DNA from: Plasmopara viticola
Lineage: Eukaryota; Oomycota; Peronosporomycetes; Peronosporales; Peronosporaceae
Length of the DNA: 64,000 nt
NCBI GenBank assembly: GCA_001695595.3
Contig: MBPM02000004.1
Location: 2,201,696-2,265,695, forward strand
Direction: 5' to 3'
The position numbers and the translations under genes were made by a program. A model generated the notes under the pieces. It ran no database searches, was not told the origin of the DNA, and saw nothing but the letters and a program-made list of their open reading frames with translations. Shown here in pieces: positions 4,871-64,000 of the stretch (within the stretch, counting starts at the first letter, position 1; each line of letters starts with the position of its first letter).

Positions 4871-7800
4871 TTACAAAGTTCACAAATGAATGAATCAAAG
4901 AATCGACAAGATGAAGAAAAAGAATTCTTCGCTCGGGGCTTCATACGTGCTCATCTCACAGATCTAACATTTGGTTTTTGTGGAAATGATTCTAAAGAAC
5001 GAAAGGATCCATCGCTTGATTCAGCAAACAGCAGCTAAATGTCATTTATAGTAGGATATCTGCATACAATACGAAGATGGTACAGCATCAATTGAATAAA
5101 ATAGCAGATTTTAAGCTCGACTACAAAGACATAAAAGCATGAAAAAGTTAAGCTACGCATTCAGAGTGTCAGACGAACGAGTGAAAAAACCGACGCTTTA
5201 TTTAGTGATGGCCTTGCTATACCATTTGGATGTTTTCGCAGCTATAATTAGCCTTACGATCATTACAGACATACATTCCCGATAAAAACTTCCAGTGCAT
5301 TTGATAATTACAATGTGCATCATCGAGATAGAAATCATAAGAGGCACTACTTAATCAATAACGAGCGCCTATATTCAGCTACTTCGATCTCGGAGAAATT
5401 GCTTTGGTGATATATATATATATGAGTCATGGGATGCATACCAGTCCTCTCTGACTTCAAATAAACCAAATCGAATAATTGCATCGACGATTCGGAAACC
5501 ATTATCAGAGACAGAAATATTCTTCTTTTAGAATGCACATCATCGCCAGATTGAGGGTAGCTATGGTGATAACGCCGATCTCAACGTCTCAGAGGTTTAG
5601 GCGATGAAGAAAAGCCTTATCATCAGTGAACGACCTCAGAAAACTCGAGCAGAATAATATCTTTAAATGTTTTCTGTCGAGCAGAATAATATCTTTAAAT
5701 GTTTTCTGTCATCTATGGTGAACTTACCAAATCGTTTTGGTCTATGTTCTGTTTATAGACCGAGGTCGTGATTATAACTTGAAGACTATCCTTTTTACAT
5801 CGATAAGACCGTCCAATACAAGTGTCTCAACGCTAAGGTCCGGCAAACAAATGTACTTGCTGCCCAGTTGTCGACAAACGTACGCCGGCGATGTAATTAA
5901 GCACTGAATAGGATTCGGGAAAAAGGTTTCACCACATCTGACTACTTTTTTCATTGGAACGACACTATGCTGACGCCTAGGCAAGCTAGTTTGCGGGCCA
6001 AAGGGTCTTTGATTTTCGCTCGAACCGGATCCTCTCAAAACACGACATTGTAATCAAAGTCGGGCATCTGAATATATTTTGCTTCGGACTGATAAACAGG
6101 CTTCTTAGCAATAAGAGCTGAATGGGCTGTCTTTAGAGCGACTTTCGCTGCTTTTGAGCTAAATACTTCGACAGCCAGCTTGGACGCTACAGATCGTTAA
6201 AAAGCCTCGCTATACGGCTATAATGAAGCTCTGGCATCATGTTGTGTTTTTCGAAGATCTTTGTCATTAAATTCTCAATACTTTGTCGCGTGATATCGTG
6301 TGCAGTCCCTATAATGACCTTGTTTGGGACGTCATATTGATATTAAGACAAGCAATTTTTAAGATATTTCAGACTTGCAAACAAATTTTATGTAAATGAG
6401 ATTAATCTGCCTTTGAATCAATACGTAAACGTAAAATTTGCAATTTCCGGCTCGTCCTAATTTCTAGCTGAGCGAACATTTGCTTTAATAACTTTTTAGC
6501 ACTATCAGGCAAGATGACCTTGGTGCTTGGTGGAATTGTAGCGGAGAATTAAATTCTGAGGCTCTTTTATCAGGGGCTTGCCGGCCTCGCTAATCTTTTC
6601 CAAGCTTTAACACTCAATTAAATATCGGCCGGACAAAAGGTATTTATGTTGAACAACAAGCAACTCAGCCATATATGGTTTAGGGTCTACCGTTAATGAC
6701 ACGGTAGACACAATGAATTTATATAAAAGAGAGAAAGGGACGATTTCTTGTATTGCGACATCGAGTAACTACGCTCGAGATTAGGTCTTAGCTAAAAAAA
6801 CGAATCCATCGCAAAGAATGGCTTCTAGCAGGATGCATCTGCCCATTACGACCGATTTTTCATATGTGATGATCCACTTTACGTAATACATGACAGAAAG
6901 CTAAACTCCACTCGTACACGTAAAGCCACGACTTCTTCCTCGACGCCTTTTTGACCACAGACTTTTCATGTCTTTTTTGGAATCATCTTTTTTTTGTAAA
7001 GGATGAAAGATATGTCAAACACTTTTAAGCTGTGTACATTGCCTTACGAAACACTTCTTCATGCCTGGCAATGGTCAATCTCAAACCGCACTCCTCTATA
7101 CGGTGAGAAGGTTACTGCTGGTCCTGTGGACATCGATTAAAGAGTCTGTTACATCCTGGAATTTCTCAAAAAATCTCTGAGCTCAGGTGAAACGTACGCT
7201 AATTATATTGCTTATTTAAGACATCTCGGCCTATTATAGAATACAATCGTGCACCGACAGAGAGGTATCCATTTTTGGAACCTTGACTCTGACCTCTGAG
7301 ATCTAAAAGACTTTTAGAAAACTCACTCGCTTCAGCTTCTTCGAGGCTGGATGAATTCTAAACTGGCGATGACTTCGATTAAAAGAACCTGCCATGTCCT
7401 GACGACTAGTTGAGCTATTTATTACCTCTATGAAAAAGCTCTTTTTGCTAATGAATCTATGAGTCTATTTTGTATCGCATCCCAAATTTTTCTCTAGCGG
7501 AGCTATGCTAATCGCACTTAATGGTAACTCGCTACCAACTGTTGACCTGTATTATTCATTCTGTGTTGCGAACCTATTTCGATAGTTTGCGGAGCCTTTG
7601 TATCACAATTGGTGGTGGTTAGTTATTCATCTATGAGATTGTGATATTCACAGTGTCTTGCTGACCTTTGTTACCCGCTTGTAGAATTTTGTTGCCTCTA
7701 GCTGTTGACAATAAATTTCTCACATTTAAATACTGTTTTTAGCGCCTTTGCTGCCAGTACCTGCTCTGCACTACCGGATCATTCGACCTGGAAATATAGC

Positions 7801-11696: not shown

Positions 11697-13568
11697 ATGG
11701 ACGCGATCAACGGCGTAAAGATTTATCTGGAGAAAATCATTTCCGACCCGCAACTGGAGGGGATGAAGGCACTGCTACTTGATGCCGATACTAAGAGCGT
11801 CATCAGTATGGTCATGTATCAGTCGCATATTCTTCAGCGCGAAGTTTTTCTCGTGGAGCAGCTGGACGCAGCGCACGAGCCCATGTTGCATCTCAAGGCC
11901 GCTGTTTTTGTGCGGCCTACAGCACGTAACGTGGAGCTATTACGACAAGAGCTGAAGGCACCCAAATATGGAAGCTATCATCTTTTCTTTTCTAACATTT
12001 TACCGGTCGAGTCGCTTGAGAAAATTGCGGAGGCCGACGATAAGGAAGTCGTGGTGCAGATCCAAGAGTATTACGCCGATTATCTAGCGGTCAATGACTC
12101 TCTTTTCGAATTTGGTCTTCATAACACCATTCAACTTAGTGCCAAAATGCCGATGGCTTTACCCGGAGGAAATTTGTTATCTACTGCGACGGCGGGAGTT
12201 CTTACCACAGACCCGATAGATAAGGCCAATATGACGCCACCGCAGCTTTTTCAGCGAAGTGTCGAAGGGCTGCTATCCGTTCTACTTTCAATGAAAAAAA
12301 AACCGACAATACGTTATGCTAAAGGATCAGAAGTGGCCGAGAAATTAGCACGTGAGGTGTCGGCGAGGATGCAGCTCGAACAGGATGGATTGTTTGATTT
12401 TAGACGACCGGAGGTTACACCGCTCGTTTATGTGCTCGACCGCAAGGACGATCCCGTGACGCCATTGTTGACCCAGTGGTGCTACCAAGCTATGGTGCAT
12501 GAACTGCTCGGGCTGCACGAAAATCGTGTGAACCTTCGCGATGCACCGAATGTGCGAAAAGATATGTCGGAGCTTGTGTTATCAACGACTTCAGACGAAT
12601 TCTTTGCACAGCATGTCCACGCGAACTTCGGTGATCTTGGCATGGCAGTTAAGCAGCTTGTGGACAAGTATCAATCGCAAACTCAGACTAATGAAAATAT
12701 TCAGTCAATTGATGACATGCAGCGATTTTTGGAGAACTACCCAGCTTTCAGATCACAGTCAGTTACCGTCTCAAAGCACGTGACTTTAATGGGTGAATTG
12801 GCACGCCGTGTCGAAGTGGATGGGCTTATGGATGTAAGCCAACTGGAGCAAGAGCTCGCATGTGGAGACGATCACAATGCGCATTTTCGTGACGTGGTGG
12901 TAAAGCTCAAAGATGCGCAAGTTAAACCATTGAACAAATTGCGCTTAGCAATTTTGTATGCTTTGCGATATGAAACGCATAGCTCCGTGCAACTAAAGAC
13001 AGTCAAAGAACTGCTGGCTGCTCCTTATGGAGGCGGATTGTCTTCTAATTGCGTGGCATTAATTGACGTCTTTATCAAGTATGGAGGCCAAAAGGCCCGT
13101 CAGGGTGATTTATATGGCGACCGTGCTGGCCTGAAGAAATTTATGCGTGCTGTTACTCAGGGTGTACAAGGTGTTCCGAATGTGTATGCACAGCACGTGC
13201 CACCTTTAGCCAAGAAGCTAGAACTCATTTTGAAAGGCCAGCTGCTGGATCAAGAGTTTGGCGTTGTCAATGGAGGCGCAAGCTCAGGAGCGTCGACTGA
13301 TCTTAGCGGTAATAACGGATTTAAACGAGTACGTAATGTCATTATGTTCGTGTGTGGTGGTGTCACGTTTGAGGAAGCTATGAAGGTGGCTGAGCTAAAT
13401 CAAAAAGCAGCTTCGTCGAATTCCGGCCAACGCGTTCTGCTAGGCGGATCGTGCATTCAGAACTCGACAAGCTTTCTCGAGGAGGTAGCTGCAGCGTACA
13501 ACTTGACACCTCTCTTTGCACACGGCAGTGGGAAGACCCATTTGAATCATGATGGAAAGGAATTGTAA
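11697..13568 (+). CDS. VPS45: Vacuolar protein sorting-associated protein 45 (Sec1/Munc18 family)
   Basis: A single uninterrupted 623-codon frame. The product is an SM protein that binds a Tlg2/syntaxin-16-type SNARE and promotes vesicle fusion at the trans-Golgi/endosome. The N-terminus MDAINGVKIYLEKII and GMKALLLDADT match the syntaxin-binding domain 1 of VPS45. The middle has the SM-family stretch DRKDDPVTPLLTQW (about residue 250), and the C-terminus has FVCGGVTFEEA and LLGGSCIQNSTSFLEEV, typical of the last Sec1 segment. At 623 aa it is somewhat longer than the roughly 570-580 aa of yeast and human VPS45, partly through a Ser/Gly insert near residue 530. The ATG at 11697 begins the conserved N-terminus directly. 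The frame is GC-richer than its surroundings and a nine-A run (about 12296) is intact, so the gene looks functional. It converges on the DUF4833-like gene. Confidence 0.93.
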   Translation: MDAINGVKIYLEKIISDPQLEGMKALLLDADTKSVISMVMYQSHILQREVFLVEQLDAAHEPMLHLKAAVFVRPTARNVELLRQELKAPKYGSYHLFFSNILPVESLEKIAEADDKEVVVQIQEYYADYLAVNDSLFEFGLHNTIQLSAKMPMALPGGNLLSTATAGVLTTDPIDKANMTPPQLFQRSVEGLLSVLLSMKKKPTIRYAKGSEVAEKLAREVSARMQLEQDGLFDFRRPEVTPLVYVLDRKDDPVTPLLTQWCYQAMVHELLGLHENRVNLRDAPNVRKDMSELVLSTTSDEFFAQHVHANFGDLGMAVKQLVDKYQSQTQTNENIQSIDDMQRFLENYPAFRSQSVTVSKHVTLMGELARRVEVDGLMDVSQLEQELACGDDHNAHFRDVVVKLKDAQVKPLNKLRLAILYALRYETHSSVQLKTVKELLAAPYGGGLSSNCVALIDVFIKYGGQKARQGDLYGDRAGLKKFMRAVTQGVQGVPNVYAQHVPPLAKKLELILKGQLLDQEFGVVNGGASSGASTDLSGNNGFKRVRNVIMFVCGGVTFEEAMKVAELNQKAASSNSGQRVLLGGSCIQNSTSFLEEVAAAYNLTPLFAHGSGKTHLNHDGKEL

Positions 13569-14082: not shown

Positions 14083-14673
14083 TTAAGAAAAAGTAATTCG
14101 CTCGTAGGTTGTTTGGTCATCGTCTATTCTAGTTCCATAGAGATCCACGTATAGCACCTTCGGGATGAAAGCAACAATGTCAGCAGTTTTCACGTAAATT
14201 TTACAGAGACGCGACGGGGCACCATTGATTGCAGTTTGCAAAATTACCTGTCCTTTAGCATCAACGAAAAGAAGGGCAGGACGATTAGGCAGCGCATTCA
14301 ATGTCACGGAATAAAAAGTACCGAGGGCTTCAGCTAATTTAACAGCCTTGTGGGTGTAGACCCAAGCCAGTCTACGTTCGACCATACCAATCGGGTTCGT
14401 ACTAGGGTTGGCGGTCCAGCCAAAACTCCGCCAATTGATGTCCAAGGGCCATTTAGCGTCCAGCACGCGGCGTTCCTTGTCGAAGAAATTGGCCGAGTAC
14501 ACAACAAGTTGAGCGTTTTTGCTGCGTTCTAAAATGATAACTCGGTCTTGGTCCACTGGGAGGTAGGTCGGCCAAAGTGGAGATTGCGGATGAGCAGACT
14601 TTGTCGTGCATTGATAATCATTGTCAGGAAATTCTTTGGTAAAGTATCGCTTTTCGCGGTCCTTTCCAAGCAT
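14083..14673 (-). CDS. DUF4833-like protein
   Basis: A 196-residue frame with ATG at 14673 and TAA at 14083. The core (residues ~45-180) carries RSKNAQLVVYSANF, then PLDINWRSFGW, then ERRLAWVYTHK, and ends with KVLYVDLYGTRID. This order of a RSKNA strand, an xDxxW strand and an ERxLAxxY helix is the pattern I associate with the DUF4833 family, whose function is unknown to me. There is no clear signal peptide or membrane segment. The frame has no break and normal codon use. It is transcribed convergently with VPS45. The family call is from memory of the pattern; the coding call is firmer. Confidence 0.6.
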   Translation of the reverse strand: MLGKDREKRYFTKEFPDNDYQCTTKSAHPQSPLWPTYLPVDQDRVIILERSKNAQLVVYSANFFDKERRVLDAKWPLDINWRSFGWTANPSTNPIGMVERRLAWVYTHKAVKLAEALGTFYSVTLNALPNRPALLFVDAKGQVILQTAINGAPSRLCKIYVKTADIVAFIPKVLYVDLYGTRIDDDQTTYERITFS

Positions 14674-14965: not shown

Positions 14966-16300
14966 TTCAGCCAGTTATGCAACAATTGGGTTGCTGATGG
15001 ATATGGGCAGGTGGACCGCATGTACGTGTTTGATGGCCATTGTGGTGTGAATGTGGAGTCTCGCTCGAACGTACGCATTATTACTGAGCTAGCGTGGCAA
15101 CACCACTTTGTCACGAACATGTTTATCCGCTCCAAGTTTGCTCGTGTAGCCAAGAATTTCGAGGCTGACTTTACGCTTATTAATGCGTGCAACATTGTCG
15201 ATGAAGATTGGTAGGAAGGACTTCATTCGGAAGTATTTGTGCTTTTTAAAATAAAAAAACACTTGGGCATTATTGGCGGCACGTTTTACAGTGGCGAAAT
15301 GAAGAAGGCGATCTTTAGTATGATAATTTACTATTTGCCTTTGATTGATGTGATGACCGTGCAGGCTTCAGCCAACTTTGGCGGGTTAGGACACACAGCT
15401 CTCTTTTTTGGGCTCTCTGGCACGGGCAAGACGACGCTATCGGCTGATTTGAAGCGCGAGCTCATTGGTGACGACGAACTCGGCTGGGATGACGAGTATA
15501 TATATAATTTTGAAGGCGGCTGCTATGTCTGGACGATTAATTTGAGTAAAGAGACGAAGTCCGAATCTTTAATGCGAATTGCCCGGATGCCTTGCTTGAA
15601 AATATGTGGATTGACGCTAATAATGAACCCGACTATTACAACTCAAGAAAGACGGAATATGGTCGCGTATCGTATCCAATTTCCCACCTTCTCCGCCATC
15701 AGCCTCAATCTCGTGACATTCATCCGAGTGTCATCAATTTTTTCATGGCGATATGTACGGCGTGCTTCTTCCTGTATCAAAGTTGTCAACAGGTCAGGCG
15801 CGGTTCCATTCCTTGTCGGATTACTCTGCCTATGTGGCGGGTTCGGAACGCGGCATTACGGAGCCACAAGCGACGTTCTCGACGGGCTTTGGATCTGCGT
15901 TTATGACGCTGCACCCAATTAAGTATGCAACTCTATTCGATTTGAATCTAGAGGGACGCAATACGAACGTGTATATGATTAATACGGGCTGGACTGGTGG
16001 CGTGTATGGGGTGGGGAAATGCATAGAGCTGCAGTACACGCGTAAGTGTGTTGATGCAGTGCTTGACGGCAGTATCAAGAAGGGCAGCGTTTGTTAAAGA
16101 TCTTGTGTTTGGCTTAAAAATTCCCACATTCGTGGAAGGCGTGCCATCTGAGATGTTAAATCCAAGAGACGCGTGAACGGACAAGGGTGCGTTCAGCGAT
16201 ATTGCTCAAAATTTGGCTGCCTCGTTTAAACAAAACTACAGGCAGTTTATTCTGCCAGGCAAGGACGTATCATGTTACGGCCCGGTGATGTGTTAGTTGC
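14966..16300 (+). pseudogene. Phosphoenolpyruvate carboxykinase (ATP) pseudogene, 5'-truncated
   Basis: Translations in three frames reproduce most of an ATP-type PEPCK (oxaloacetate + ATP to PEP + CO2, gluconeogenesis). In order: RMYVFDGHCGV, HHFVTNMFIRS, FTLINACNIV, the [16 protein letters not shown] segment, the kinase-1a P-loop [13 protein letters not shown], kinase-2 [56 protein letters not shown] and EGVPSEMLNPRDA. Roughly the first 100 residues are missing. There is an in-frame TAG at 15212-15214, frame changes near 15590, 15740 and 16095, and a TGA at 16174-16176. Conserved motifs remain readable, so the loss is not ancient. It lies wholly inside the inverted-repeat element. No intact copy is in the window. 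Confidence 0.9.
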
Positions 16301-39490: not shown

Positions 39491-41026
39491 CTAACACTCC
39501 ACGATTACAGCAAGACTCCAACACGCAGTGACTATAGCAACCATGCTTATCAATATGGAGGCGACGCAGTCCGTGCGCGTGGCATCTTCGCTGCACAGTA
39601 GCCAATAAAAGACGCATGGCAACACGAGCGCCAGAAGTGCAGTTGGTATTAACATCCACGCGAAGATATCGATCGTACTCGGTGCAGTAAAGTAGCCTAA
39701 GAGTAGCGTGGTAAGCACCAGAATGCTTCGACAGAACACGCGTGCAGCAATCTCAACGCCTTCACGCTGTCCTTGATGGGCACACTGGGACGCGGGATTG
39801 GAATTCACAAAAGGCAACGCCCCAGCGGCAGCCGCTACTTCTACTGGACTATGAAGATTGCTTTTACTTGGAGGCTGCACAATCCAAGTCTCGAATGCAC
39901 GCTGGACAGGAAATAAGGTAATGGTATACGACATTAGCAAGTGAATGCTATACAACACGATGGCCACATTGCGCACGACGGCATTGCGCATATTAAAAAA
40001 GACCGGTGCCTGAAGCGTCGCGCCATACACGGCGTACGTGACGCAGCAAATGGGAAGGTACAATAAAGCTGTGGTTCCCAACTTTGTCCAAGCCACCACC
40101 GAATTACACTGGTTTGAATCTTCCATGGCGTCATATAACGTAGGAATAATTGAATGGCCGAAAAGCCCACCAAGAAGCAACGAAAAAGTGTACGAGAGCT
40201 TTCCCATCACCGTCACGTCTGAGAGATCGGGCGTCACGAAAACGAAGTCAGAATGCTCCAATGCGATCTGCTTGAGAGGGTACATGGCATCGCCCAGAAT
40301 GACCGACTCAATCCAAAAGCTGATGGCCACATTCACCGCTGACAAAATTGCTAGCGCCTTAAGCGATGGTACGAGTACTTGAAACCACACGCACACTGCC
40401 ACTAAAACCATGACAGTACCATAGTGTAGTCCTAAGACATCCACAAGGCAGGACGATGTCAGCGCTAAGTATCCGGTGGACAAAATTAAAAGTGAGGAGT
40501 GCACCAGCACACTCGTCACCACTTTGCCAACTGCACCAAAACACTCGTGCCCAAGGTCGCTATACGATACGCTGGTGCCTCTTAGCCAGCGCACCGCCTC
40601 CAACGCATCAATCAACAATTTGGACGTGTAAGCGCTCACAGCCGCGGCTGCAACGAGCAATAAGACACCGTACCAATTAATTTCCACGAGGGCTAGTGGC
40701 AGACACAGCATGCCTGTGCCTGTTATAAAGGACAGCAAGTGGTAGAACGTCTGCCAATTTGAAAGTTTGTTATAAGTTGACGCCATCAAAGGATCTGCCA
40801 CCGAAGGGGTCCAAGAAGACGCTAGGTGTTCCATTTCTTTAAAGTTGTGGCTGGACATAGCACCGTAGTCGGCTCGGCCATTGCCCTTCGATGAGAAGGC
40901 CACGACAGCAGCCTCGTGGCCGTCAAAACTGCCTTTTAAAACTTCGCAAGTCCTCGCGTGGTGCTGTTGCGCCGGTGGCACCAGGCGTTGCAATTTGCAG
41001 CCATGGCCCATGCGCTCTCCAGCCAT
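39491..41026 (-). CDS. Amino-acid transporter, AAAP (Aa_trans) family
   Basis: A single frame with ATG at 41026, TAG at the 3' end, 511 residues. A hydrophilic N-terminus of about 75 residues precedes about ten or eleven predicted membrane segments. The first begins NWQTFYHLLSFITGTGMLCL, matching the helix-1 signature of amino-acid/auxin permeases (a GxGxLxLP-type motif). Other landmarks: SYSDLGHECFGAVGK after helix 2-3, GGLFGHSIIPTLYDAMED in the middle, FPVQRAFETWI late. Members are proton- or cation-coupled amino-acid carriers of plasma membrane, vacuole or vesicles; substrate cannot be read here. A GTG 12 bp further upstream is in frame but not a credible start, and a TGA closes the frame beyond it. 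The gene is intact. The start may lie further in, for example before SSHNFKEMEHL. Confidence 0.88.
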   Translation of the reverse strand: MAGERMGHGCKLQRLVPPAQQHHARTCEVLKGSFDGHEAAVVAFSSKGNGRADYGAMSSHNFKEMEHLASSWTPSVADPLMASTYNKLSNWQTFYHLLSFITGTGMLCLPLALVEINWYGVLLLVAAAAVSAYTSKLLIDALEAVRWLRGTSVSYSDLGHECFGAVGKVVTSVLVHSSLLILSTGYLALTSSCLVDVLGLHYGTVMVLVAVCVWFQVLVPSLKALAILSAVNVAISFWIESVILGDAMYPLKQIALEHSDFVFVTPDLSDVTVMGKLSYTFSLLLGGLFGHSIIPTLYDAMEDSNQCNSVVAWTKLGTTALLYLPICCVTYAVYGATLQAPVFFNMRNAVVRNVAIVLYSIHLLMSYTITLFPVQRAFETWIVQPPSKSNLHSPVEVAAAAGALPFVNSNPASQCAHQGQREGVEIAARVFCRSILVLTTLLLGYFTAPSTIDIFAWMLIPTALLALVLPCVFYWLLCSEDATRTDCVASILISMVAIVTACWSLAVIVEC

Positions 41027-41241
41027 GTCAAGTCCCACTATGCACCGCTTTGTTCAGGTGACGGCTGCAGCTGTATCTTGCTGAGGATTCAGATTAGGTT
41101 TTCGGATTGATTATGTTGTTCACACATTAAAGCAACACCCGAGCAACAATATATGCTCATCTATCAGACGCGAAAAAGATGCTCAATTTAAGCAGATGAA
41201 GCCCAGTAGCAACGCCGATTTCGTTAACAAAACTTAACAGG

Positions 41242-41994: not shown

Positions 41995-43156
41995 GTAATG
42001 TAATGTATTACGTTATCGCGTTGCCAAATTATGCACGTGCTAGGCTCAGTCTGGCTAGTCCACGGCATAGAGTGATGTCCGCATACGTCGGGTCTCGTTC
42101 GGCGGGCAGTGCATCCAGCACCGAGGTGTGAGGGTCTTCCATTTCTTTCGGTCTTGTGCAAGGGTACGTACCACTTCGAGGTCTTGTGCTATCCAGAGTC
42201 GAGAGCCGGGGCCACGGGAAACAAGGTTGTGGTCGAGTGTTGAGGGGAGCGTGGTGCGGGGACGTCCGCGCCATTTTGCTGCGGTGGAGAAGAAGTAGGC
42301 ACGCATCTGGAGGTTAGCTGGAATGTCAGGATTGGGGCGAAGTACATGGCCAAACAGGCGCCAGCGAGCTTGTGTCAGTCGTAGTCTCAGCGGCCGCTCA
42401 TCGCAGAGGTCGTAGAGTCTTGCATTCGAAATGTGTCGGGGGTAGCGATAGCCAAGAGCGTAGCGAAGCTGGCGGCGATGGAAACTCTCGAGACCGTGGA
42501 GCTCTGACTTGGTAAGAGCCCAGGTGGCGCAGTTGTACAGCAGAATCGGTAGAACGTAGGTGTTGTACAATCGAATGCGGGTCTAGGGTGAGATGAGCGT
42601 GGGGCGGAGTCAGACGGACCAGAGGCGGTGGAGCGCGAGGGTGGCCAGACACTTGCGTCGGGATAGATATTAATATCGCCGAGGAGTGTTCCGAGCTTCT
42701 TAGTGTGGCGCCAGGTTTCTTCTCCGGATCGGGCGTGTCGAGTGGCGCCCGACGGGTTGCAGTGGCGGCGGATTTCGGTGACTTCGGTCTTGGCTTCGTT
42801 TTTTTTTTTTTTTTTTTCAGGGTTAGAAGGAAGTCATCAATGCGGTGCTCACCTCTATCGTAGATCTTGGTTTCTCGGAGGCCAAGGATATCGACGCGGT
42901 AGCGCCGGAGATCTTCGGGGAGTGTTTCGTGCTTCTTGCGCTTCGAACATAGAGAATTCACATTTAAAGGAGCCAATCCGGATGCGGTTGGCGCGGTTAA
43001 GGACGCGGAAGGGGGTTTGGCCTGGTGCTGGAGACCGTCGCGTCGAGGGTGAGACTCGTTAGAGACCTGAAGATGCCCGAGAGCACCTGCCCGAAGCGCG
43101 GGAGCATTTAGCCCCCGCGCTTGGAAGGAGGGCGTCACCCCAACCTTTTCCGAAAA
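41995..43156 (-). mobile_element. Deletion derivative of a LINE-type retrotransposon (copy B)
   Basis: Minus-strand element. The 5' part (about 42985-42830) encodes the start of an apurinic-type endonuclease (LNVNSLCSKRKKHETL, then YRVDILGLRETKIYDR). A run of about 20 T on the plus strand (42799-42821) marks an internal junction. Then come the C-terminal RT-connection and tail (TWRHTKKLGTLLGD; 42055-42570 gives NTYVLPILLYNCATWALTK, FHRRQLRYALGYRYPR, RWRLFGHVLRP). The catalytic RT domain and most of the endonuclease are deleted, so the copy is defective. The 3' tail has ATTAC-type pentamers. Copy A near 18 kb shares both ends. It inserted upstream of the transporter gene and downstream of RPN2. 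Confidence 0.85.
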
Positions 43157-43302: not shown

Positions 43303-46300
43303 CTACTCTGGTGGCTCCCACTCAAATGGCTCAGGTGGGTCAGCCTCATTTTCCGCGCCTGCGGCAGCGGGCGCCTTGATGACCTCGACATCCTCAGCCT
43401 CATCAGGCGTTGTGTCAAGGAGCATGATAACTCCTGCCAGCCTCTGTGCCGGGTGCATCACCGGTACGTACCTCTGCGCCGTATCTAGAGAGATGACAGA
43501 CTCCTGTGCGAGCGTTACACGTGCGGGTGTCGTAAAGGAAAACACACTAGGCTCTTTAGTCACCGCTGTCTTCTTACTCGCTGTTTGCTTTGATCCCTCA
43601 GTATCTACATCCATCCCATCGCCACTCCCTTTTTTTTCTTCATCAGCTGCAGCAGAAACATACTTCCCCTCCATCAATATATCTCCACCGGCGTCAACAG
43701 GCTTCGACAATTTCTCCTTCGCATCTTGCTTTGCCTGGCGCGCACGCGCTTTCGCAGTTGTGGACAGCACCGCCGTGGCAACAAGCTCTTTTTTTTCCTC
43801 CTTTTTCTCCTCCATGCGCTTTGGAGTGGCAAAAGCTGACTTCTTTGCGTTGCATGTGAGATTAAAGCTTCGCGGGAGCTTCAAGTCTTTGTTGAGACCA
43901 ACAACCATTGTCGTCTGAAAGGACAGCTCCAAAAAGTTAAAAAGAGGGTACCAGAACCAATGCTGTGCCCAAATTGCCAGTCCAACCACAGCGGCCATCT
44001 TAGTGAATCCTGCGTGAGACTGCAGCGAAATTACTACATTGCGACCACCGGCATCCAAAATGCCTTGAGCTAGAATAGCACCCATCTTAGTCATCGTCGT
44101 CACGTGCTTGTCGGTTATAAGCTTAAATATCTTCGCACGTATAACAGCCACTTTCGGGTTGCGACCTTCAGACTCCTGCATTACAACCATTGCCAAGGCA
44201 AGCAGCGCACCTTGACGAACGTAGTCTACAGCATCGTCAAGCAGCGGCTCCAACAGCTGAATAGCCTCGTTCTTTGCAGTGCCGGCGCATGCAATACCTA
44301 CAGCTACGCAAGCTCCATAGCGAACATGAGGGTTGAAGCTTTCAGCCAACAGCGACACCAGCTTTGGCACCTGAACAGGGGTGCGAAACAAGATGAAGCC
44401 CAAACAAGTGACGGCAGCGCGACGCACATCGTCGGACACATCGCTTACAGCAATGTGTAGCAATCTCCGAATGGCAGTATTGTTGGCAGTGCCTGCGTAC
44501 GCCATGGCGACAGTGTACATCCCTCCGTAACGAATCAGTGGGTCCTTGTCGCGGGTCAGCTGCTCGATCAACGTGTCAGCCTGCTCTTCGCGCTCGTACA
44601 TCATTAGTGCAATACCCATCACGCAGCCACGAATAATCTTTTCGTGCTTTGTGTCGTGTGCATAGGACAGCAAATCCTTAACAATCTCACCATTGCGATC
44701 GTCACCCCCAGCACCAAGAAGAAGTAGACCGATCGCTATACCTGCACCCTCGCCCGCAATGGCTGAATCAGTAAACAGCACAGCCTTCAGCTCCTCGTAT
44801 ACTTCGTAGTCTTGTGAAGCCAGCCCACATAGACCGATGCCCAAACACGCGCCATGCTGGACGGTCTCATCGGATCCAGCATTTTTGAGCGCATTACGCA
44901 AATATTCCATCGTCGTCTTGCTGCCCGAGTCTGCATACCCCTTATTGGCGTGAATCAAGCCCATTGCATACAGAGCACCACCTTCAGAGTATGGAGAAGT
45001 TGTCACGTTACCACCTTGAGGCAAGTAGGGAGCGAGAAGGTTCATGCTTTCACGAACGTGGCCCTTGTGCACAACACCCAAACTAGCAGTGGCTGTAAAC
45101 TTTGCCCAGTTCGTCGCTTTGCCTAACCACTCCAAATTCTCACGCAAAAACGTATCAGAAGTCGTACCGCAATTCAAATAGGCGTGAGCTATTACAGCGG
45201 CGTGGTGTAGCACTGAGTTGCGGTTTTCCACAGCAGCCTTGATTGTCTTCATAACAAGTGGATCCGAATCGCTGCGGCTGTATAGGAAATCTAGCTTCAA
45301 ATCCACAAAAATTCGCCAGACAAAATTCGCTTTAATTTTGCCAACTTATCCCAGTAATCAGCACAAGCACCGGCAAATGCGGGAGGGGTAGCAGGTACAG
45401 TTAGGGTCGTAGCAGCGGGCAAAGTTGCTTCAATCTTGCTTCTTCGGCCGTACTGGTTAAGCTCGTGGCTGCTGGCTCGGCAATGGATGTCGGAGGACTT
45501 GGCAGTGCGTGGTAGACGTTCATTAGAAACTTCTGGTTCTCGTTCTCATTGAGATCGAATGCAACTTGAAAAGCAATGAGGCTGTCACGGTCGCTGCCGC
45601 GTATCAGCTGGTCCAGAATTTTACTCACTTCATCATGGTCGTCCAGCATTTGCAATATTTGACATATACTGGCATACTCTTGGGTCGAACGCGAGCGATA
45701 CACTTCCAACATAACCTTAAAAACCTTGAGACGGAAGTGACGGTTTACAACCACCGTCTTGCAAATCTCAAAGCAGTACGATAGAGCTGCTGACACGTCG
45801 TTTGAGCGAGCAAGGCACTCTTTCACCTGGTCTAGTCTTCGAGCTTCCAAGGCAATGCCCAAAGCCTGACGAAACTCGCCTGCTGCATAGCAGCGCTCAA
45901 ACATGTGTTCCACTACCTGCGTGAGTCGTGGGTCCAGCGCCTTTTCGGCTTCCGTGTCCTCCTTGACACGCACAGCCACGTAGTTATCGATGCACGTGGC
46001 GATGATAGTGTCGGTGTATTGCGAGCGCGTGTTCAGATCAAGGTATTTCCCTGCACCAAGCGCCAGCCGCAACGCGTCCTCGTACTCTTCCAGATGAAAG
46101 AAACACTTAGAGGCAACATAGGCCGCAAGGTCGCGGTCCGGAAAATTTTTTCTTCCGAAAGCTCCTCAATAAGTGGAATAGCGTCTGCGATCTCGGCCCA
46201 GTAATGGTCGACCACTTGATTAAGTTTCTGGAGGGCATGAGTCTGTGCAAATTGCGATCAAAGAAACGGTATATTTACTCTTGTAAGTAGGGTAAGTTCA

Positions 46301-59397: not shown

Positions 59398-59690
59398 TTT
59401 AGGGTTTAGGGTTTAAGGTTTAGGGTTTAGGGTTTAGGGTTTAGGGTTTAGGGTTTAGGGTTTAGGGTTTAGGGTTTAGGGTTTAGGGTTTAGGGTTTAG
59501 GGTTTAGGGTTTAGGGTTTAGGGTTTAGGGTTTAGGGTTTAGGGTTTAGGGTTTAGGGTTTAGGGTTTAGGGTTTAGGGTTTAGGGTTTAGGGTTTAGGG
59601 TTTAGGGTTTAGGGTTTAGGGTTTAGGGTTTAGGGTTTAGGGTTTAGGGTTTAGGGTTTAGGGTTTAGGGTTTAGGGTTTAGGGTTTAGG
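59398..59690 (+). repeat. Internal telomere tract (TTTAGGG)n
   Basis: About 42 consecutive TTTAGGG units, with one variant TTTAAGG at 59412-59418. The G-rich strand runs left to right, as at a right chromosome end. It marks an earlier chromosome terminus onto which the retroelement was added. Confidence 0.97.
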
Positions 59691-59971
59691 ATTTATTAAA
59701 TTATGCAAGTTACTACACAAACTTAATTATTCCTAAAGAATAGTCCGAAATGATCCGATTGACTAATTCTTTCGCTGGTTTGCTTCTTCAGTAGGACTTG
59801 TTATTCTATAGTTGGACTTGGACCTTACGGACATCTTACCAAAACTCTAACTTGAAATTCATACTTGAAATTCATACTTGAAACTCATACTTGAATTTCA
59901 TACTTGAATTTCATACTTGAATTTCATACTTGAATTTCATACTTGAAATTTGTACTAGGGTTTAGGGTTTA
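59683..59971. repeat. Left copy of 289-bp direct repeat (element 3' side)
   Basis: Identical by eye to 63469-63757, offset 3786 bp. It starts GGTTTAGGATTTATTAAA and ends CTAGGGTTTAGGGTTTA. It contains eight 13-bp tandem units (ACTTGAAATTCAT and variants, 59850-59953). For the minus-strand element it is the 3' UTR, and the RT stop codon (59969-59971) is its last three bases. Confidence 0.92.
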
Positions 59972-61870
59972 CTCCCCATCGGCTGTACAATCTTGTATTA
60001 AGGCTGCAGTCGACGGGGCAGTTTTCGGAAGTCGCGAAGGACACAGAAGCGTCTTGAGAGTTGGAGGCTTGAGGTAGCAGATTTTAACTTGCGGTCCGAG
60101 TGCCTTTTCCAGCTCATCGGTCAGTAGTATAGACCGTAGTCTGCTTCTTGAAAGTCCATTTGGGTCGTATTGGAGCTTGAAAACTATAGGTGCTGTAGAT
60201 GACGTGTTGCGTGATGACGTAGTGTCGTCGAGCGCCTGTCTGAACAGCGGTTGCAGTATTCTCGGAGTATATCCTCGGTCAAGTAGCCGCGCATAGAGTT
60301 GTTTGACGATTCGTTTAAAGTCACGATATCGAACATTCTGTTTGCGGTATTTACGGACTTGGCCAATGATTAGTCCTTTTAGAACACCAGGTGGATGAGC
60401 GCTATTAGCAGGAATATACAGGTACAAATTCAGACTTTTCTGATATGTTCTTGTGTATATCCTTTGTTTGTCCCGAATGATTCGTAGGTCTAGAAACACA
60501 GCTTCATCTTTGTCGATAGAGCTTGTGAATCGTAGCTTAGACCGCCGGGTAAATGTTGCTAACATGCGCTGGAAGCTATATGGCTCGGTGCTCGGACTCC
60601 ACAATGTGAAGATGTCATCGATGTAGCGTTTGTAGTAAACTACATGTCGCGAGAATTCTGTAAGTAGAATCTCTTCGATGTGAGCCACGTAGAGGGAAGC
60701 GAATGCCGGTGCCACCGGTGTTCCCATAGCCGTTCCACGCAATTGGCGCCAGCATGAGTCTCCAAAGGTAAAGTAATTGTTGTGCATTACTACTTGGAGA
60801 CCAGACAGAATTGCGTTTTCCCATGGATGACCCCGTATACGTTCCGCGATTGCTTTGATAGCGTTGATAATCGGAATATTGGTGTAGAGAGATTCTACGT
60901 CGATTGTGATCAACAGCGTATCAGGCGGGAGTATCAGGTCCGGGAGGTCTGTCAATAGCTGGTCTGAGTCGCGTATATAGGATTTAGTGGATCTATAAAA
61001 GGGTTGAAGTTGAAAATCTAACCACTTTGAAAGTCCTTCCAGTATACTTGCGCTATTGGATACAATGGGTCGAATACAGAGTTTAGGTTTGTGTATTTTT
61101 GCTAATGCGTAAAACACATTCAACCTTGACTCTTCTAGTTTCGCAACAATGATCCGTGTTGTGTCCCAGTCAGTACGATAGGCATATGTCTTTGCCACGT
61201 TTCTGTACCAAGTGCGAACTTTTGTCCGCACAAGCCGGGTTAATGCTTCGACTGGAGCGCATTGCAGCTCGTATATTGACTTATCTGAAAGATGGTCAAT
61301 ACACAGTCTAACATAATGCTCCGTTGTAAAAAGAGCCGGCCCTAAGTTCTTATCAGTAAGGACTACTTTAAGATCTGGGCGGCTTCTTAGGAGCTGAAAC
61401 GTGTTCCATTGTCTCGAGTTAAGGTTCCTGAGTTTCCTCGGTTCCCATGTCTCGCGACTAATGTTGTCTTGAACACGTGTGAGTATCGTTTCGATTGAAG
61501 CCGGTGCTGGTTTCGGTTGAAACGATGGGTTCGGAACATAAATCTTGCGATTATATGATCCTTGATGGTTCCCAAACTGTGCGGAGAGGCGAACTTTCCG
61601 TATGAAGTCTGGGAGTGCAGCATGAAGATCGGGCGGTCGGATAGGTCGAGGGGTCGGGCAGAATCTTAGGTTAAGACCCAGTAAGCGGTTCAGAGCAGGG
61701 GGAGTAGCAACTGCAGAAGGAACAAAGTTATGAAAAGCTAAGTTCTTTGCATAGCTATTAATCTCCCTAGTACTGCGACTAGCAAATAGTGCCAGCGCAT
61801 TCCTACTATCTGACCTATCTACTTGGATCGGGTCTTGCCTTTCGCGTTCCGCGCGCCTTTCTGCTTGTTG
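59969..61870 (-). CDS. Penelope-like reverse transcriptase (ORF2, expressed by -1 frameshift)
   Basis: About 633 codons from the frameshift site to TAA at 59969-59971. The N-terminal PLE motifs are present: LLGLNLRFCPTPRPIRPP, DFIRKVRL and TDKNLGPALFTTEHYV. The RT core follows: FYALAKIHKPKLCIRPIVSN, motif A TIDVESLYTNIPI, motif B RGTAMGTPVAPAFASLY and motif C YKRYIDDIFTLW with the DD pair. The thumb reads FLDLRIIRDKQRIYTRTYQK and HPPGVLKGLIIGQVRKYR, a PLE hallmark. No GIY-YIG domain follows. There is no ATG between the slippery site and residue ~350; the frame overlaps the end of ORF1 in the -1 phase, so synthesis as an ORF1-RT fusion (about 924 aa) is likely. A GTG at 61231 lies inside the conserved region and cannot be the true start. 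Confidence 0.92.
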   Translation of the reverse strand, partial: QQAERRAERERQDPIQVDRSDSRNALALFASRSTREINSYAKNLAFHNFVPSAVATPPALNRLLGLNLRFCPTPRPIRPPDLHAALPDFIRKVRLSAQFGNHQGSYNRKIYVPNPSFQPKPAPASIETILTRVQDNISRETWEPRKLRNLNSRQWNTFQLLRSRPDLKVVLTDKNLGPALFTTEHYVRLCIDHLSDKSIYELQCAPVEALTRLVRTKVRTWYRNVAKTYAYRTDWDTTRIIVAKLEESRLNVFYALAKIHKPKLCIRPIVSNSASILEGLSKWLDFQLQPFYRSTKSYIRDSDQLLTDLPDLILPPDTLLITIDVESLYTNIPIINAIKAIAERIRGHPWENAILSGLQVVMHNNYFTFGDSCWRQLRGTAMGTPVAPAFASLYVAHIEEILLTEFSRHVVYYKRYIDDIFTLWSPSTEPYSFQRMLATFTRRSKLRFTSSIDKDEAVFLDLRIIRDKQRIYTRTYQKSLNLYLYIPANSAHPPGVLKGLIIGQVRKYRKQNVRYRDFKRIVKQLYARLLDRGYTPRILQPLFRQALDDTTSSRNTSSTAPIVFKLQYDPNGLSRSRLRSILLTDELEKALGPQVKICYLKPPTLKTLLCPSRLPKTAPSTAALIQDCTADGE

Positions 61871-62742
61871 TTTTTTCCTGAATTCGACTTGGTGGGCGGC
61901 TTTCCGGACTTGGCGAGACCGGTAGCGCCCGCTTTTCCGTTTGCGCGTAGCCCTTCCTTTTGAGGCTTTGCCGATTTCTTCTGCTGCTGGGGCTTTGCAG
62001 TCTTCGTTATGCGCCGATCGGTGCCCCTTTGACGACCGGCGCTGTCGTTTAACGCTTCCTTGAGCCGCGACACTTGATTTTTCAGTGGTCGCAACTCCTG
62101 TTGGATGCGCTTGTTGACGAGCTCCTGGACAGAGGTTGCCATGGGCGTTTCTGATTCGATGTCCATGGCTGTCGCTCGTTTGGCTTCCTTAGCGGCTTTG
62201 GCCCGTTCCTTAATGACTTGTTCAATCGCTAAGTCGTAGCGAAGTTGAGTCAGTCGTGTGTTAAGGAGAGCCTTGGCCATTAGGAAGTCAGTGACCGCCA
62301 TCGAGTTTTGTCCATTAGGAGAAGTAATTGCACTTTCCCATGGCGGACCCGATGGCATGAAAAGGGTGTGAACATCGCAATAAAAAGAACTTATCTCTTT
62401 AATTGCATTGACCGATAATGTCTCAAGTTCAGTCTGAAGTAAATTCAGTTCAGCCGTCGTTGCAGTCTTAATGATTTCTGCCAACGACTTTTCGTTTTCA
62501 ACGAGTTGCTGATTGAACTGGGCGCGCAAAGATGCAGCGCTATCGGTATTTTCGAGCTCTTTAGACACGGTCAAGGAAATCTTAGTCTTCACAGAGCGGG
62601 GCGGACCCTGCTCAAGGCGTTGAAGAGCTAGCTGCTTAGATTTGATTCTAGCAGTAAGATTCCTGTAGCGTTTGACCGTGGAGTCGATGATGCTCAACAC
62701 GTTTTGCGGCGGACTGCTGCGAGTCGGGTTACTCGGGTCCAT
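61819..62742 (-). CDS. ORF1 of the telomeric PLE: basic coiled-coil protein
   Basis: A 307-codon frame from ATG at 62742 (context AGGATGG) to TAG at 61819. Residues ~10-60 and ~70-125 are helical and charged, including LRAQFNQQLVENEKSLAEII and LNLLQTELETLSV. Residues ~155-245 contain two further likely coiled-coil stretches (RLTQLRYDLAIEQVIKERAK and QELVNKRIQQELRPLKNQVS). The last ~65 residues are Lys/Arg/Gly-rich and disordered (TAKPQQQKKSAKPQKEGLRA, KNNKQKGARNAKGK), as expected of an RNA-binding tail. Coiled-coil ORF1 proteins precede RT in several PLE lineages. The function, probably RNA chaperone or particle assembly, is inferred. The slippery A AAA AAC lies 16 codons before its stop. Confidence 0.85.
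   Translation of the reverse strand: MDPSNPTRSSPPQNVLSIIDSTVKRYRNLTARIKSKQLALQRLEQGPPRSVKTKISLTVSKELENTDSAASLRAQFNQQLVENEKSLAEIIKTATTAELNLLQTELETLSVNAIKEISSFYCDVHTLFMPSGPPWESAITSPNGQNSMAVTDFLMAKALLNTRLTQLRYDLAIEQVIKERAKAAKEAKRATAMDIESETPMATSVQELVNKRIQQELRPLKNQVSRLKEALNDSAGRQRGTDRRITKTAKPQQQKKSAKPQKEGLRANGKAGATGLAKSGKPPTKSNSGKNNKQKGARNAKGKTRSK
61870..61876 (-). promoter_or_regulatory. Predicted -1 ribosomal frameshift site (A AAA AAC)
   Basis: On the minus strand ORF1 reads gga aaa aac; the last A of gga plus the next two codons form the canonical slippery heptamer A AAA AAC in the correct phase. After a -1 slip the frame continues CAA CAA GCA GAA AGG into ORF2 without a stop. A short GC hairpin (CGCG-GAA-CGCG) starts about 16 nt downstream; its role as stimulator is uncertain. 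Confidence 0.82.
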
Positions 62743-63468
62743 CCTTAAGTGTAGTAACCTAGTTGTAATCAGGCTAGGTCGGATGTTGAGTGGCGTAACA
62801 GCCGGCTGTTTCGAGCACGGTCTGTTGTTCGTCGCGGTCGGCCGGTCGGCTCAGTCGGACGCTGGTCGTGGATCTTGTCGACTTAGGACCAAGGCTTGAA
62901 GCCGGCCGTTTTTTGGTCGGCCAGCTGGCTTGAGGGTAGGACTTGAGACCGGTCGGTTTGTTGGTCGACCGGTGACTTGATCGTGTCCGGATCTTGAACT
63001 TCGCACTTGGTCGGGTCCTTGGTCGGGTCCTAAGTCGGGTCTTGGTCGGGTCCTTGGTCGTCCTTTGGATCTTGGCCGTCGGATACCAACAATCTTTTGA
63101 CGTATTGCCCTACTTATGTTCCGTTTTATGTTGAATATGGGTAGCACTAACGGATAGGTTGATATCGAGAACTAGCGCAAGGCTTATGGGAAAAAGCCAG
63201 GTCTAGGGGATTATAACTTCTCCGCCTACCTCCCCGGTCACACTTTCAGGTTTTACGTAAACCACGGCACTATTTCTGTTCGATACGGAGACGCACTAGG
63301 CTCACGTATCCAGGGTGCTGCTCACTCACACTCCTGTGTGCCCGCAGAGTCAAAAATCCCTTATGGGATAGACTTCTCCGCAAATGAGAACTCCGATAAG
63401 CGTTACAATAAATTGCAAGCACGGTGCTCAAGGGCACGGGTTTTTCTAACCTAATTAAAATATAAAAA
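62743..63468 (-). other. PLE 5' leader with GGTCGGGTCC-type repeats
   Basis: Between ORF1 and the right direct repeat. The part 62820-63090 is rich in short GGTCGG / GGTCGGGTCC motifs on the plus strand, repeated irregularly. A minus-strand frame (63147-62851) through it gives Arg/Pro-rich low-complexity peptide (PDLGPDQGPDQ) and could be an upstream ORF or merely a product of the repeats. The part 63148-63468 has no clear feature except TATAAAAA at 63461-63468 next to the repeat. Confidence 0.5.
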
Positions 63469-63757
63469 GGTTTAGGATTTATTAAATTATGCAAGTTACT
63501 ACACAAACTTAATTATTCCTAAAGAATAGTCCGAAATGATCCGATTGACTAATTCTTTCGCTGGTTTGCTTCTTCAGTAGGACTTGTTATTCTATAGTTG
63601 GACTTGGACCTTACGGACATCTTACCAAAACTCTAACTTGAAATTCATACTTGAAATTCATACTTGAAACTCATACTTGAATTTCATACTTGAATTTCAT
63701 ACTTGAATTTCATACTTGAATTTCATACTTGAAATTTGTACTAGGGTTTAGGGTTTA
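63469..63757. repeat. Right copy of 289-bp direct repeat (element 5' side)
   Basis: Apparently identical to 59683-59971. Its telomere-like end (CTAGGGTTTAGGGTTTA) merges into the terminal telomere tract. It is either a pseudo-LTR of the element or the 3' UTR of a second, almost wholly 5'-truncated copy added later. Confidence 0.92.
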
Positions 63758-64000
63758 GGGTTTAGGGTTTAGGGTTTAGGGTTTAGGGTTTAGGGTTTAG
63801 GGTTTAGGGTTTAGGGTTTAGGGTTTAGGGTTTTTTTAGGGTTTAGGGTTTAGGGTTTAGGGTTTAGGGTTTAGGGTTTAGGGTTTAGGGTTTAGGGTTT
63901 AGGGTTTAGGGTTTAGGGTTTAGGGTTTAGGGTTTAGGGTTTAGGGTTTAGGGTTTAGGGTTTAGGGTTTAGGGTTAGGGTTTAGGGTTTAGGGTTTAGG
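63744..64000 (+). repeat. Terminal telomere tract (TTTAGGG)n
   Basis: TTTAGGG units from 63744 to the window end, with a T7 expansion at 63831-63837 and one TTAGGG unit at 63975-63980. The orientation is that of a right chromosome end; whether the physical chromosome ends here cannot be seen. Confidence 0.97.

Follow-up and report, generated by a model that had tools for sequence, protein, structure and literature searches.

A telomere-associated Penelope-like element in Plasmopara viticola and its probable addition by telomere priming

We analysed a stretch of 64,000 nucleotides from Plasmopara viticola (assembly GCA_001695595.3, contig MBPM02000004.1, positions 2,201,696 to 2,265,695; hereafter the window), which closes with a Penelope-like element (PLE) lying between two tracts of the telomere repeat TTTAGGG. 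The window runs to the final base of its contig (C4, 2,265,695 bp), and this right edge is telomeric. The scored reverse transcriptase (RT) copies of related elements lie on 26 contig ends in a single orientation, the 3′ joints of these elements with the telomere repeat vary independently of element phylogeny, and their RT is under purifying selection. We hypothesize that these elements are added to chromosome ends by reverse transcription primed from the telomeric 3′ overhang. To this explanation as a whole we assign a probability of about 0.85, the chemistry of priming, the takeover by telomerase at the seed and the -1 frameshifting that would yield the RT being the parts that we infer.

The element and its place at contig ends

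The element proper spans about 59696-63741 (about 4.05 kb) and is coded on the minus strand. Its features are as follows.

59398-59695, plus: internal TTTAGGG tract of about 42.6 units, presumably the old telomere that received the element
63742-64000, plus: terminal TTTAGGG tract, running up to the contig end
59683-59971, minus: 3′ terminal repeat (pLTR), same sequence as the 5′ one, edges telomere-like
63469-63757, minus: 5′ terminal repeat (pLTR), same sequence as the 3′ one
59731-59796, minus: hammerhead-like ribozyme of the 3′ repeat, predicted cut 59736/59735; no Rfam call
63517-63582, minus: hammerhead-like ribozyme of the 5′ repeat, a descriptor match
59956-59971, plus: encoded telomere seed TAGGGTTTAGGGTTTA, which doubles as the source of the RT stop codon
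59969-62188, minus: RT frame, 739 codons, PLE/telomerase-like, without GIY-YIG
61870-61876, minus: slippery heptamer A AAA AAC in the frame of the first open reading frame (ORF1), within the overlap; weak candidate for a -1 frameshift site (chance probability 0.32)
61819-62742, minus: ORF1, 307 amino acids from ATG, basic C-terminal tail, no Pfam family
62743-63481, minus: leader, 739 nt, no ATG, starting with the encoded telomere-complementary edge

Both tracts point the same way, and all 69 two-unit TTTAGGG matches in the window are on the plus strand, where shuffles lead one to expect 0. The two direct repeats of 289 nt are 100% identical, and the RT stop codon (59971-59969) is made from telomere-like bases at the repeat edge. 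An earlier note on this DNA had described a minus-strand element between two TTTAGGG tracts, with an ORF1, a frame-shifted RT without GIY-YIG and direct repeats, and this description holds in every part. It had noticed neither that the 5′ edge is fixed and bears a seed nor that the 3′ joint varies in register, and the hammerhead-like motif had escaped it.

The assembly (92,937,831 bp, 358 contigs) was searched with the window RT (61 of 164 candidates scored) and with an RT that carries GIY-YIG (46 of 92 scored). The former gave 73 matches among the scored candidates and the latter 46, on the same 26 contig ends. In 73 of 73 and 46 of 46 the 5′ side faces a telomeric contig end no more than 25.4 kb away; among these scored matches no RT copy is reversed and none lies away from such an end. 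Numerous internal copies without telomere repeats, or copies in both orientations, which according to the earlier note would speak against telomere-primed addition, were thus absent from both sets. The orientation rule is broken by terminal-repeat pieces, namely an inverted family B piece at C130 and a 68-nt piece at C122. The GIY-YIG-bearing query aligned over residues 127-835 of 994, with its endonuclease at 897-977, and neither Pfam on the window RT nor the matches of this query revealed an RT-linked GIY-YIG. Eight GIY-YIG matches exist elsewhere in the genome, none inside the PLE arrays.

The copies form three families: A, that of the window, at about 82-100% identity plus decayed pieces, C at 48% (contig C329) and B at 35-38%. 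A TTTAGGG tract closes 24 of the 26 contig ends, and the other two stop in a terminal repeat (C28) and in an RT (C146); further in, these ends hold 35 more tracts. Within the fetched arrays lie 1,214 of the 1,681 four-unit TTTAGGG matches of the genome, all pointing outward. PLEs are interspersed through most of the assembled telomere repeat, the families being mixed: A, B and C alternate with TTTAGGG tracts at contig ends, as in the order A-tract-C-tract-C-tract on C329.

Joints with the telomere repeat and the route of insertion

The leader-side edge of family A, which was never primed, reads GGATTTA followed by TTAAATTATG in 23 of 24 cases (GGATCTA in the other). On the other hand, the 22 A joints at telomere tracts fall into six classes: GGGTTTA (11), GGATTTA (7, including the joint of the window) and the singletons GGGT, GGG, GGGGGTTTA and GGGTTTTA. 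The position that differs among these classes is base 59691, an A in the window as in the encoded copy. When three joint groups were placed on a tree of 20 A elements, 9 changes were needed, against a mean of 8.8 after shuffling; the tree rests on the internal region and covers these 20 elements, not all A copies. Well-supported branches force at least four changes for each joint group, and the sister copies C4 and C117_9872 have different joints. Because joint class is unrelated to the element tree, the joint is not carried with the element. The 3′ joint was probably re-made at insertion, which favours telomere priming over recombination.

The 20 elements remained after 5 of 25 repeat pairings (internal length >3,900) were excluded as false or incomplete, and C130_1159 was scored in this test as GGATTTA despite having no tract. 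Five of 51 A 3′ edges fall outside both the telomere class and the internal class (C7:308, C130:1159, C319:4580, C22:1224 and C28:8984); four of them read GGATTTA and one GGGGTTTA. The edge search misses 3′ edges with an altered 13-nt motif.

At the 5′ side the joint is mostly fixed. Of 60 tracts of at least three units in the fetched arrays, 23 follow the A edge TTGTAC/TAGGG (one of them a solo repeat between tracts at C59), 16 the B edge and 2 the C edge. The remaining 19, classed by eye, comprise 7 truncated A (for example within the RT at C203 and within the repeat at C319), 5 truncated or off-edge B (one old), 6 other flanks and 1 tract continuation at C14. The fixed edge is thereby present at 23 of 30 A ends, 16 of 21 B ends and 2 of 2 C ends, an extra A fragment at C7 capped by two units only being left uncounted. 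In all three families the edge beside the RT bears an encoded two-unit telomere seed, at which telomerase presumably takes over. For endonuclease-deficient telomere-associated PLEs mostly 5′-truncated copies are expected, a feature that the relevant passages of reviews present as typical (PMC3846280, PMC6431247) and that is not strictly defining; the copies here are capped yet mostly untruncated.

How would such joints arise? In the element RNA the 3′ edge of the terminal repeat (5′-UAAAUCCUAAACC) would be an almost exact copy of the telomeric C strand; telomere-complementary repeats occur at the 3′ end in A, B and C. Judged by base complementarity, 13 positions of this segment could pair with the overhang 5′-GGTTTAGGGTTTA, one of them, the variable base, as a G:U wobble. 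The TTTAGGG 3′ overhang of the chromosome would pair with this edge and prime cDNA synthesis, so that the element would be added with its 5′ end outward. A primer ending ahead of the wobble base would let the RT write A, while one reaching past it would keep its own G. The cDNA would usually stop at the encoded two-unit seed past the second terminal repeat, telomerase would extend it, and repeated cycles would build arrays of element, TTTAGGG and element. Telomere-primed addition had been proposed in the earlier note and is supported by location, orientation and joints, except that two A copies (C22 and C130) are joined without a tract. The re-seeding by telomerase that the note had added is compatible with a match to the telomerase RNA-binding domain at C25.

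Several points weigh against telomere priming. The evidence comes from assembled sequence, and part of the candidates was scored, so that decayed internal copies may remain. The joints of family B are uninformative (6 of 6 as encoded), and family C offers two joints only, one of which deviates from the edge as encoded. Sequencing errors could account for two of the six joint classes, which differ just in homopolymer length. C46 and C79 have identical internal regions and the same joint class, and near-identical copies could reflect recombination. Finally, a few joints lack a tract, that at C22 being beside non-telomeric DNA and that at C130 beside an inverted B piece. Not every insertion used a telomere, and these two joints may represent the capture of broken ends. 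The two copies lie at C22:5177-10393, next to a neighbour that appears Copia-like by eye, and at C130:122130-126383, next to the B repeat piece.

The strongest rival explanation, which we nevertheless consider unlikely, is that the elements spread mainly by recombination between telomere tracts through break-induced replication, the RT being of little current importance. Yeast Y′ elements, also interspersed with telomere repeats, spread by recombination of this type, unlike the element here as we read it. The tracts between elements and the near-identical copies on different ends would supply the substrate, and outward orientation would result automatically. However, recombination would carry the 3′ joint along, whereas joint class is unrelated to phylogeny and differs even between sisters; the unchanged joints of a Y′-like recombining repeat are not seen among these copies. 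The purifying selection on the RT also argues against it. Much less probable is insertion into existing telomere repeats by an endonuclease acting in trans, in the manner of the TRAS/SART non-LTR elements. Telomere repeats do flank the element on both sides, and GIY-YIG matches exist elsewhere in the genome, but register variation on one side and a fixed seed edge on the other fit end addition better, and no RT-linked GIY-YIG turned up by Pfam on the window RT or among the scored matches of the GIY-YIG-bearing query. Contig ends collapsed or joined through repeats are the least credible source of the pattern: assemblies do fail at contig ends, and this one is described as pseudo-haploid in the text of its paper (PMC6660063), but one grammar holds across 26 contig ends and three families, many copies have intact frames, and a sample of 20 other left contig ends contained no telomere tract, so that tracts are not randomly scattered.

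Terminal repeats, template and reading frames

The terminal repeats of A, B and C all appear to bear a hammerhead-like ribozyme. Our type I hammerhead descriptor (CUGANGA, an optional extra A, helices II and III, and helix I matching around the cut) was written post hoc and gives 0 matches without the extra A, which was allowed as in a viroid hammerhead. On both strands of the window it matches twice, once per repeat on the coding strand, compared to a mean of 0.02 and a maximum of 1 in 100 dinucleotide shuffles. All matches listed for the fetched stretches are on the element coding strand with one layout per family, and helix I differs among the families yet stays paired. Rfam makes no hammerhead call in the repeats, and the stretches with the motif fold with z-scores of -1.21, -0.70 and 0.08, which are unremarkable. 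About 45 nt separate the predicted cut from the telomere-like edge. Each terminal repeat also contains a 13-bp minisatellite (59850-59950 and 63636-63736), to which Rfam assigns miRNA models, its other matches being weak. The unit switches from ACTTGAAATTCAT to ACTTGAATTTCAT midway, so that the two halves can pair as a long hairpin. Its copy number differs among elements, and the terminal repeat measures 259-377 nt.

The two repeats of one element resemble each other more than those of different elements (0.95 vs. 1.96 substitutions in 20 elements; a value this low in 2 of 10,000 shuffles). When each cluster is represented by a single element (13 of the 20), the values are 1.08 and 2.11 (17 of 20,000 shuffles), and for the unique part of the repeat alone 359 of 20,000 shuffles are as low (13 elements). 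This likeness suggests a single RNA repeat as the source of both, which a dimeric or circular template would permit; gene conversion is an alternative. At C7, a 45-nt A fragment is capped exactly at the predicted ribozyme cut, a position uncertain by two bases because TA also starts the telomere unit; the end of an adjacent fragment lies a few bases beyond, and the case is the sole one in the fetched stretches. Three A pieces, all short or truncated, succeed one another at this locus (C7:1-5400) with telomere units after each, and the piece that ends at that cut is one of the three.

Could the template be a hammerhead-processed dimeric or circular RNA, primed inside at the UAAAUCCUAAACC edge? 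The RT would then copy the repeat, both reading frames and the repeat again, and the product would be closed at the seed. We regard this as a tentative idea that is somewhat more doubtful than probable. It would explain the repeats at both ends, their match within a copy and the invariant internal edge next to variable outer joints, as well as the solo repeat at C59 and the C7 fragment, which can be likened to retroviral strong-stop DNA.

The RT frame lies at -1 relative to ORF1 and has no methionine ahead of the catalytic region, where Pfam RVT_1 matches residues 386-551 with 29.1 bits, slightly below the curated cut-off of 29.6. Families B and C show the same -1 overlap, and in all three families it contains a canonical heptamer in frame, which is A AAA AAC in A and B and U UUA AAC in C. 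Codon shuffling gives a chance of at least one such heptamer in the overlap of 0.32 (A), 0.43 (C) and 0.50 (B), and the heptamer is weak evidence because chance yields one fairly often. In 5 of 20 A copies it is replaced by G AAA AAC, and structure 3′ of the site is weak (z of -1.63 and -0.33). Past the overlap, pN/pS of the RT frame is 0.18-0.21 in nine copies, that is, purifying selection; inside the overlap it is 2.2, as expected if most of the overlap is translated in the ORF1 frame alone. The RT is probably made by -1 frameshifting. A database search with ORF1 returned 8 matches including itself, those named being from Peronosclerospora sorghi (two) and Plasmopara halstedii (one).

Elsewhere in the window, Pfam identifies host genes for a Sec1 family protein (11697-13568), DUF4833 (14083-14673), part of an ATP-type PEP carboxykinase (15239-15922), an amino acid transporter (39491-41038) and the 26S proteasome subunit RPN2 in two pieces (43303-46072). 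A minus-strand ORF at 42055-42570 resembles by eye the C-terminal part of a LINE-type retrotransposon protein and has no Pfam match, and a perfect 32-bp tandem repeat (2.1 copies) lies at 5645-5710.

Classification and comparison with known systems

In a tree of 116 RTs, built by a quick method with SH-aLRT support only and containing no named Athena or Coprina row, A, B and C fall in a clade of 70 rows (support 100), with six GIY-YIG-bearing rows on the other side. None of the 67 database rows in this clade, many of which come from short contigs, has a listed GIY-YIG; a GIY-YIG domain in full-length relatives, the further counter-evidence named in the earlier note, was therefore not encountered there. 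Among solved structures the RT fold is closest to telomerases, with group II intron RT, R2 and viral polymerases close behind in Z; that other folds are missing from this list carries no weight. A PDB sequence search with the RT returned TERT only (E 0.77). PLEs are the retroelements closest to telomerase.

Gladyshev and Arkhipova reportedly described Athena in bdelloid rotifers and Coprina in fungi as endonuclease-deficient telomere-associated PLEs in 2007, and their abstract is said to list stramenopiles. The element very probably belongs to this kind: it combines a PLE/telomerase-type RT without GIY-YIG, a telomeric position with the 5′ end outward and a telomere-complementary 3′ end. The earlier note had supposed that the architecture might be undescribed in this group. 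The kind itself is known, and the literature on PLEs and telomeres in oomycetes, Phytophthora, stramenopiles and downy mildew yielded no recognised description of these elements among titles, abstract starts and passages, subscription papers being outside this coverage. The re-made 3′ joint, the seed-bearing fixed 5′ edge, and the hammerhead-like motif with the -1 overlap in three families look new, and we rate the mostly full-length, seed-ended elements with a readable priming register as the novelty. The assembled telomeres of P. viticola are largely PLE arrays, and from a single G:U wobble base at the joint one can apparently read, copy by copy, on which side of it the primer ended, which makes natural insertions scorable. 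If a dimeric or circular template is indeed used, the use of terminal repeats and their ribozymes would be explained. As set out in passages of reviews, the class is established, and telomere priming by its members has so far been inferred from location, orientation and end structure (PMC3846280, PMC6431247). Telomeres and Penelope both go unmentioned in the main text of the assembly paper (PMC6660063), and according to a passage of a 2025 paper there was no earlier report of PLEs from this supergroup (PMC12477816).

Like Athena and Coprina, as reviewed in part in PMC3846280 and PMC6431247, the element has a PLE-type RT without GIY-YIG, an upstream ORF and a length within 4-6 kb; its 5′ end is toward the chromosome end with telomere repeats beyond, and its 3′ end bears short reverse-complement telomere repeats. 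In contrast to them, the 5′ end here is in most cases not a truncation but a fixed edge that bears the repeat and ends in the seed, a terminal repeat stands at both ends, and three families with a -1 ORF overlap alternate with TTTAGGG tracts. Hammerheads are known in PLEs and in Terminons, according to the passages on them (PMC7229834, PMC6431247). Terminons too are attached to telomeres and form head-to-tail arrays, and in them a hammerhead motif lies close to the 3′ end, ahead of reverse-complement telomere repeats, as the hammerhead-like motif does here; they reach up to 40 kb, whereas the element here has about 4 kb, no accessory ORFs seen beyond ORF1 and, unlike Terminons, about 45 nt between predicted cut and telomere-like edge (PMC6431247, in part). 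MoTeR, GilM/GilT and TRAS/SART are likewise interspersed with telomere repeats, but are LINE-type in the account given in PMC10088271.

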